Shown in pieces: positions 10,835-11,441 of a DNA stretch of 64,000 nt (position 1 is its first letter; the number at the start of each line of letters is the position of its first letter). The notes under the pieces were generated by a model. It worked only from the letters and a program-made list of their open reading frames with translations, searched no databases and had not been told where the DNA came from. The translations under genes were made by a program, and so were the position numbers. The stretch comes from an uncultured Cryomorphaceae bacterium (GTDB taxonomy: Bacteria; Bacteroidota; Bacteroidia; Flavobacteriales; Schleiferiaceae). The DNA lies in the NCBI GenBank assembly GCA_902614915.1, contig CACMMX010000007.1:1-64000 (forward strand), read 5' to 3'.

Positions 10835-10873
10835 TTGAAAAAGTAACGGATATATTTCCGTTGATATCTTATG

Positions 10874-10918
10874 CAGGGTACGAAAGGCTATTTAATGCTC
10901 TTTGTACCCTGTCTTTTT
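10874..10918 (+). terminator. Rho-independent terminator
   Basis: CAGGGTAC at 10874-10881 pairs perfectly with GTACCCTG at 10904-10911. Pairing extends inward through GAAAG/CTTT with one bulge, and the run TCTTTTT follows at once. It ends transcription of the NTF2-like gene and isolates the metal-responsive-looking region downstream. Confidence 0.75.
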
Positions 10919-10963: not shown

Positions 10964-10990
10964 ATTAAATGCAACACAGTTGCATTTAAT
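10964..10990. promoter_or_regulatory. Perfect 11-bp palindrome, candidate Fur/Zur-type operator
   Basis: ATTAAATGCAA at 10964-10974 and TTGCATTTAAT at 10980-10990 are exact reverse complements around CACAG. The right arm contains the TTG of the likely -33 element of the MerC gene promoter, so a bound protein would block polymerase. Size, symmetry and position fit a Fur-family dimer (Fur, Zur or Nur); the link to zinc is inference from the MerC gene. There is no T-run after it, so it is not a terminator. Confidence 0.55.
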
Positions 10991-11008
10991 AAAATATTGC
11001 TATTTTCA
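10980..11008 (+). promoter_or_regulatory. Putative promoter of the MerC-like gene
   Basis: TTG at 10980-10982 and TATTTTCA at 11001-11008 are 18 bases apart, a reasonable if imperfect match to the phylum promoter. The -33 element sits inside the palindrome's right arm. AAGGAG at about 11023-11028 is a recognisable ribosome binding site before the ATG at 11034. Confidence 0.4.
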
Positions 11009-11033
11009 CCTTTGTAAAATTTAAGGAGAAGAC

Positions 11034-11441
11034 ATGTTCATATCGCGCAACAGACTGGTCTCGGATGTAATTGGAGCATCGGCAAGTGCCCTTTGTTTTA
11101 TTCATTGTTTAGCAACGCCATTTTTATTTGTCGCCAAAGCCTGTTCGGCAGCCTGCTGTTCTCATGAAGGGGTCCCATCATGGTGGAAGACCGTTGATTA
11201 CATTTTCTTGTTTATTTCTTTCATTGCCATTTACTACACTTCAAAATCATCAACGATGAATTGGATTAAATATATACTTTGGTCAGCGTGGACTTTATTA
11301 TTTGTCGGTCTTTTGAATGAAATATTACAATTATTACCGCTTCCAGAATCATTTATTTACTTCCCTGCTGTAACATTGATTTCAGTACATCTTTATAATT
11401 TAAAGTTTCATAGGAATCATAAAGAAAACTGCTGCGTATAA
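11034..11441 (+). CDS. MerC-domain inner-membrane metal protein
   Basis: A 135-residue protein with four hydrophobic helices, as in the MerC family first known from mercury-resistance operons. Helix 1 holds the pair in ALCFIHCLATPF, the family's metal-binding cysteines. The first loop is Cys/His-rich (ACSAACCSHEG), and the protein ends in ENCCV. No merA, merR, merT or merP is nearby, so mercury transport is unlikely to be the main role. Family members in marine Bacteroidota are often next to Fur-family regulators, and the perfect palindrome directly upstream suggests metal-responsive control. The substrate (zinc or another soft metal) is inference. The start is supported by AAGGAG six bases before ATG. 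Confidence 0.88.
   Translation: MFISRNRLVSDVIGASASALCFIHCLATPFLFVAKACSAACCSHEGVPSWWKTVDYIFLFISFIAIYYTSKSSTMNWIKYILWSAWTLLFVGLLNEILQLLPLPESFIYFPAVTLISVHLYNLKFHRNHKENCCV

Follow-up and report, generated by a model that had tools for sequence, protein, structure and literature searches.

A palindrome over the promoter of a MerC-like gene is a predicted Zur-type operator in marine Bacteroidota

The stretch of DNA analyzed here (the window, 64,000 nucleotides) comes from an uncultured Cryomorphaceae bacterium of the order Flavobacteriales, whose assembly comprises 1.65 Mb and is 86% complete. A palindrome at positions 10964-10990, which reads ATTAAATGCAACACAGTTGCATTTAAT, is predicted to be an operator that places a MerC-like membrane protein gene under Zur-type zinc control. 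Judged from sequence comparisons, this reading is assigned a probability of about 0.87. Zur boxes and Zur regulons are known from Escherichia coli, Bacillus subtilis, and Caulobacter (reviewed in PMC6103462 and PMC4176598), and TonB receptors and COG0523 chaperones under Zur control are, like the operators themselves, already well known (PMC6103462, PMC4176598, PMC2770081). The regulation described here is of a known kind, in an apparently undescribed lineage form and with an unexpected target. The features of the locus are listed in Table 1.

Table 1. Features at the MerC-like locus, in window coordinates
Feature	Position	Strand	Basis or remark
Predicted Zur box, operator: ATTAAATGCAAC-ACA-GTTGCATTTAAT	10964..10990	.	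12-bp inverted-repeat arms around 3 bases
15-bp core TGCAAC-ACA-GTTGCA, 7-1-7 format	10970..10984	.	Portion common to relatives; column counts, 62 homologous sites
TTG in right arm, likely -33 element	10980..10982	+	Promoter spacing seen in relatives
Putative -7 element TATTTTCA, weak, 4/6 positions	11001..11008	+	18 bp past TTG
Alternative -7 element CACCTTTG, 5/6	11007..11014	+	Long 24-bp spacing
MerC-like gene, 135 aa, four predicted membrane helices, C21-x2-H24-C25, H119, C-terminal CC	11034..11441	+	Pfam MerC, alignment of 81, structure model
Intrinsic-terminator-like hairpin, then UCUUUUU	10873..10912	+	Fold -22.8 kcal/mol, z -4.4

In the original prediction, the palindrome was described as two 11-bp arms around a 5-base centre. 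The palindrome is real, but the outer C...G pair of that centre is symmetric as well, which gives arms of 12 bp and an ACA centre. The resulting 12-3-12 repeat with its 7-1-7 core shows the dyad symmetry expected of a Zur box, which spans approximately 15-23 bp and overlaps or adjoins the core promoter. Its end is separated by 43 bases from the start of the MerC-like ORF. Since the terminator-like hairpin divides the upstream 153-aa ORF from the MerC-like gene, this gene forms a transcription unit of its own, and the box falls within its promoter region. No second match to 10964-10990 was found in the window at up to three mismatches (0 in 100 shuffles), and an Rfam scan of the window gave no match. 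At window composition, chance would yield about 0.05 perfect 12-bp repeats (centre 0-8 bases) per 64 kb, so a lone palindrome is suggestive rather than conclusive, and recurrence had to decide.

Further sites in this genome, at zinc or iron genes or next to a zur-like gene, had been named as support for the original prediction, and the scan found such sites. The assembly holds three exact copies of the core TGCAACN3GTTGCA, compared with 0.08 expected, and all three lie 5' of zinc-type genes. One is the window box; the second (C14:14611) lies 5' of an operon that consists, in this order, of genes for a lipoprotein, a TonB-dependent receptor, and the only Fur-family regulator detected genome-wide; the third (C37:928) precedes a CobW-type GTPase. 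The best NCBIfam match of this GTPase is the zinc metallochaperone ZigA, at 544.7 bits and below the equivalog cut-off of 600. It thus resembles the Zur-regulated COG0523 metal chaperones described by Haas et al. in 2009 (PMC2770081) in lying directly 3' of a predicted Zur site, and differs from ZigA proper in falling under that cut-off. The TonB receptor of the C14 operon shows weak similarity to ZnuD and scores highest on a heme-receptor model, under that model's cut-off. Looser genome scans (2-3 mismatches) returned 58 matches versus 33 for a reversed-pattern control, and 90 versus 67. As regulon members these near-matches were rejected, being little above background, and those inspected sit in unrelated places; for this reason, the three exact sites alone were used.

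Conservation of the palindrome was assessed in 80 MerC-like loci, from as many related species, obtained from a single genome-contig scan, mostly from Flavobacteriales, with some from Saprospiraceae and other groups. The core was present at 11 or 12 of its 12 positions within 350 bp upstream of the MerC-like gene in 60 of these loci, and a mean of 0.025 loci is expected from dinucleotide shuffles of the same 80 upstream regions; the remaining 20 lack a box of at least 11/12 within that distance. Conservation of the palindrome 5' of MerC-domain genes from related Bacteroidota, the other check put forward with the original prediction, is thus confirmed as well. In Wenyingzhuangia sp. (L099), the two 12-bp arms are identical to those in the window and surround another centre. 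A functionless chance palindrome, for which it can be said that 0.05 repeats per 64 kb make a single one not impossible, is refuted by this conservation together with the other two exact copies, both of them at zinc genes, and retains a negligible probability. A Zur-type gene is present in 48 of the 80 loci (adjacent and divergent in 35), and zur or CobW in 62. Relatives also often have a MacB/FtsX-like pair of ABC permease and ATPase genes next to the Zur-type gene or 3' of it (L031:2494-4358, L033:374-2322, and others).

Most genomes of the same genus are without MerC. Six other same-genus genomes carry a strict box, in each case 5' of the same lipoprotein and TonB receptor pair. When the strict box was sought independently of MerC in 118 genomes of the order, 10 sites were found in 9 genomes, compared with one place for the reversed-pattern control, and most of the 10 are located at MerC, CobW, lipoprotein/TonB receptor, or Zur units. 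The small number of strict sites is attributed to the use of CGCAAC and TGCAAT variants by relatives. Across the exact genome sites and the same-genus and order scans, the box recurs at predicted zinc-acquisition genes and at the operon of its predicted regulator.

Two of the 10 strict sites adjoin an uncharacterized small protein rich in His and Cys and an NAD(P)/FAD oxidoreductase. The former, of 116 aa (L152:3463-3813), lies immediately 3' of the box at L152:3860-3880 and near an ABC ATPase, and is possibly zinc-related. The latter (L153:3120-4088) is thioredoxin-reductase-like and directly 3' of its box, which makes it an unexpected regulon candidate. Another thioredoxin-reductase-like NAD(P)/FAD oxidoreductase (L036:4533-5438) directly follows the MerC-like gene in a different genome.

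Sigma-A promoters of Bacteroidota carry a TTG at -33. Their -7 box is TAnnTTTG (PMC9723704). It had been predicted that the right arm of the palindrome holds the -33 TTG; the placement is correct, and the reservation concerns its -7 partner in the window, TATTTTCA, which is imperfect. Of the 62 sites from relatives, 30 have a left half-site that runs on directly from a TAnnTTTG (TAnnTTTGCAAC...), and for 29 of these 30 a TTG lies 17-23 bp upstream, with 19 bp the commonest distance. Of the sites whose half-site resembles TTTGCAAC, 30 of 32 have the full TAnnTTTG; for TTTG sites at large, the figure is about 9%. Among the other 32 relatives' sites, 23 have a TAnnTTTG-like element matching at least 5/6 positions located 18-21 bp past the TTG of the right half, against a background of 4.5%. 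In the boxes of relatives, the left arm thus extends the -7 element, or the right arm supplies the -33 TTG, or both; the window box belongs to the -33 type and has a poor -7 element. In this merging with the -7 and -33 elements of Bacteroidota, the box is unlike known Zur boxes, and it shows how a predicted Zur-type operator can be joined to the unusual promoter of this phylum. Its sequence, TGCAACN3GTTGCA, also differs from the proteobacterial Zur motif GTTA-N5-TAAC (PMC4176598). As in known Zur regulons, it is a dyad-symmetric, here predicted, Fur-family operator over a promoter.

A dimer bound at -33 or -7 would exclude RNA polymerase, which argues for repression, and the regulator very probably represses the boxed genes. 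Two other arrangements, activation by Zur or a box that functions for the divergent zur gene of relatives alone, are regarded as very improbable. One marine cyanobacterial Zur reportedly differs from every other Zur protein known (PMC9337993), so the sign of control is perhaps not universal; activation is nevertheless hard to reconcile with boxes positioned directly on the -33 and -7 elements, and service to a divergent zur gene alone with a window in which the MerC-like gene is boxed without a zur gene nearby. In L052, L054, L057, L063, L080, and L099, two tandem Zur-like boxes precede the MerC-like gene, one over the -33 element and the other continuing the -7 TAnnTTTG, an arrangement that suggests two-dimer or graded repression.

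The regulator of the C14 operon contains a Fur domain (PF01475, 42.6 bits against a cut-off of 23.1). For a profile built from five members, the best PDB match is E. coli Zur (4mtd), ahead of Fur proteins. In E. coli Zur, the regulatory zinc site is formed by His77, Cys88, His96, and Glu111, with Cys88 being the B-site residue most conserved among Zur proteins (PMC4219657). Residues were compared in an alignment of 53 homologues, most of which come from MerC loci. In all 53, the structural Cys pairs of two CxxC motifs (C101, C104, C136, and C139, corresponding to E. coli Cys103/106/143/146) are invariant, and His77, Cys88, and His96 have conserved equivalents in 53, 50, and 48 homologues, respectively. 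No conserved residue aligns with Glu111; the conserved Cys109 of the regulator aligns with Cys113. By these residues, the regulator is Zur-like at its predicted metal site, with equivalents of three of the four E. coli ligands. The predicted regulon also resembles known Zur regulons in comprising a TonB receptor, a COG0523/CobW GTPase, and a Fur-family regulator. On the NCBI Zur equivalog model (PRK11639), it reaches 35.5 bits, far below the cut-off of 167, so it is termed Zur-type and is not a member of the equivalog as NCBI defines it.

Zinc is highly likely to be the effector. An unlikely alternative is that the same box and the same Fur-family regulator respond to iron or manganese, with the MerC-like gene belonging to an iron- or manganese-starvation response. 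This would fit the missed NCBI Zur cut-off, the preference of the TonB receptor for a heme-receptor model (though under cut-off), and the detection of only one Fur-family gene, to which it must be added that a further Fur paralogue could be missing from an assembly that is 86% complete. It is opposed by the boxed ZigA-type zinc GTPase, by the retained thiol-containing Zur site (Cys88 equivalent in 50/53) and the closeness to E. coli Zur among PDB entries, and by a DtxR/MntR-like gene beside a separate, boxless ABC metal transporter.

The protein encoded 3' of the box scores 70.9 bits against Pfam MerC (PF03203; cut-off 27.6) and is modeled with helices at 5-38, 49-72, 76-98, and 105-131 (mean pLDDT 81). 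It resembles the MerC mercury transporter family in this score, in its four predicted membrane helices, and in the Cys pair LCxxHC. In an alignment of 81 MerC-like sequences, C21, H24, C25, and H119 are essentially invariant; most sequences end in a CxC...CC tail, of which the window copy retains the final CC alone. The conserved His24 and His119 and the frequent C-terminal Cys cluster set these proteins apart from MerC mercury transporters. A fold search with the structure model was uninformative, yielding no PDB match at E < 0.001 and mostly generic helical bundles.

No mer genes were found among the ORFs flanking the MerC-like gene, and the best genome-wide match to the MerA model (371 bits) is below the curated cut-off of 454; the original prediction of a MerC-type gene without a mercury operon thus holds. 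The above-threshold Pfam match and a Cys pair of the kind expected in a metal transporter could still be taken to indicate an orphan mercury-resistance transporter, with the palindrome being a MerR-type or unrelated operator. This is extremely unlikely: besides the lack of an adjacent mercury operon and of a MerA above cut-off, the same palindrome recurs at units with zur, a TonB receptor, or CobW and not at mer genes, which largely refutes it. Conservation at MerC loci, the recurrent genome sites, the Zur-like regulator, and the lack of MerA above cut-off agree with the earlier proposal of a Fur/Zur-family operator for metal starvation and not for mercury resistance, in which the metal and direct binding of the box by a Zur-type protein are what we infer.

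Under Zur-type zinc control, a zinc-loaded Zur dimer would occupy the inverted repeat over the -33 element when zinc is sufficient and keep RNA polymerase off the promoter. When zinc becomes scarce, Zur would be released and the MerC-like gene would be transcribed along with the two other boxed units. The lipoprotein/TonB receptor/zur unit could then provide zinc capture at the outer membrane and feedback on zur, the ZigA/CobW-type GTPase unit could supply a zinc chaperone, and the MerC-like protein would most likely act in zinc acquisition at the inner membrane, where it would partner the TonB receptor.

Other candidate metal importers of the source genome were examined for the box. None was found at two ABC-3 metal transporter loci or at a ZIP gene, so that, unlike in known Zur regulons, the inner-membrane member is MerC-like and the examined ABC-3 permease and ZIP loci are boxless. 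The presence of two separate, boxless ABC-3 loci (L148 and L149; C10) in such a small genome is an observation in its own right; one of them adjoins the DtxR/MntR-like gene mentioned above. Among the importer candidates examined, a box is found at one inner-membrane gene alone, the MerC-like one, and inner-membrane zinc import is therefore the leading hypothesis for its product. MerC takes up Hg(II). By analogy with this uptake, the chance that the MerC-like protein imports zinc at the inner membrane is put at about even.

A broader and more tentative proposal, held at slightly less than even odds, is that Bacteroidota MerC-like proteins may form an unrecognized class of Zur-controlled inner-membrane zinc importers that partner the TonB receptor and the ZigA-type chaperone, replace or work alongside ZnuABC, and are widely misannotated as mercury resistance. 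Among the 118 order genomes, MerC is found in 34, ABC-3 in 29, and ZIP in 96, and MerC and strong ABC-3 matches seldom occur in the same genome. This pattern was not accepted as proof of replacement, since it follows family lines and the source genome has both.

No Bacteroidota or Flavobacteria are named in the main text of PMC2770081, and a search that covered open-access text found neither a Bacteroidota Zur motif nor a link between MerC and Zur; priority is thus unproven. The present analysis offers TGCAACN3GTTGCA as a testable Zur motif for a major marine phylum; no description of zinc regulation in this phylum was found in the open-access literature searched. A protein family that carries a mercury-resistance annotation in many marine Bacteroidota would accordingly be moved to zinc homeostasis and the zinc-starvation response. 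If MerC-like proteins do import zinc, abundant ocean bacteria would possess a zinc transporter of a new kind, and metagenomic counts of "mercury resistance genes" based on MerC matches would be misleading. Two of the MerC-like loci (L105 and L049) lie on contigs labeled Neomarinimicrobiota and Melioribacteraceae, which hints at transfer or mis-binning.
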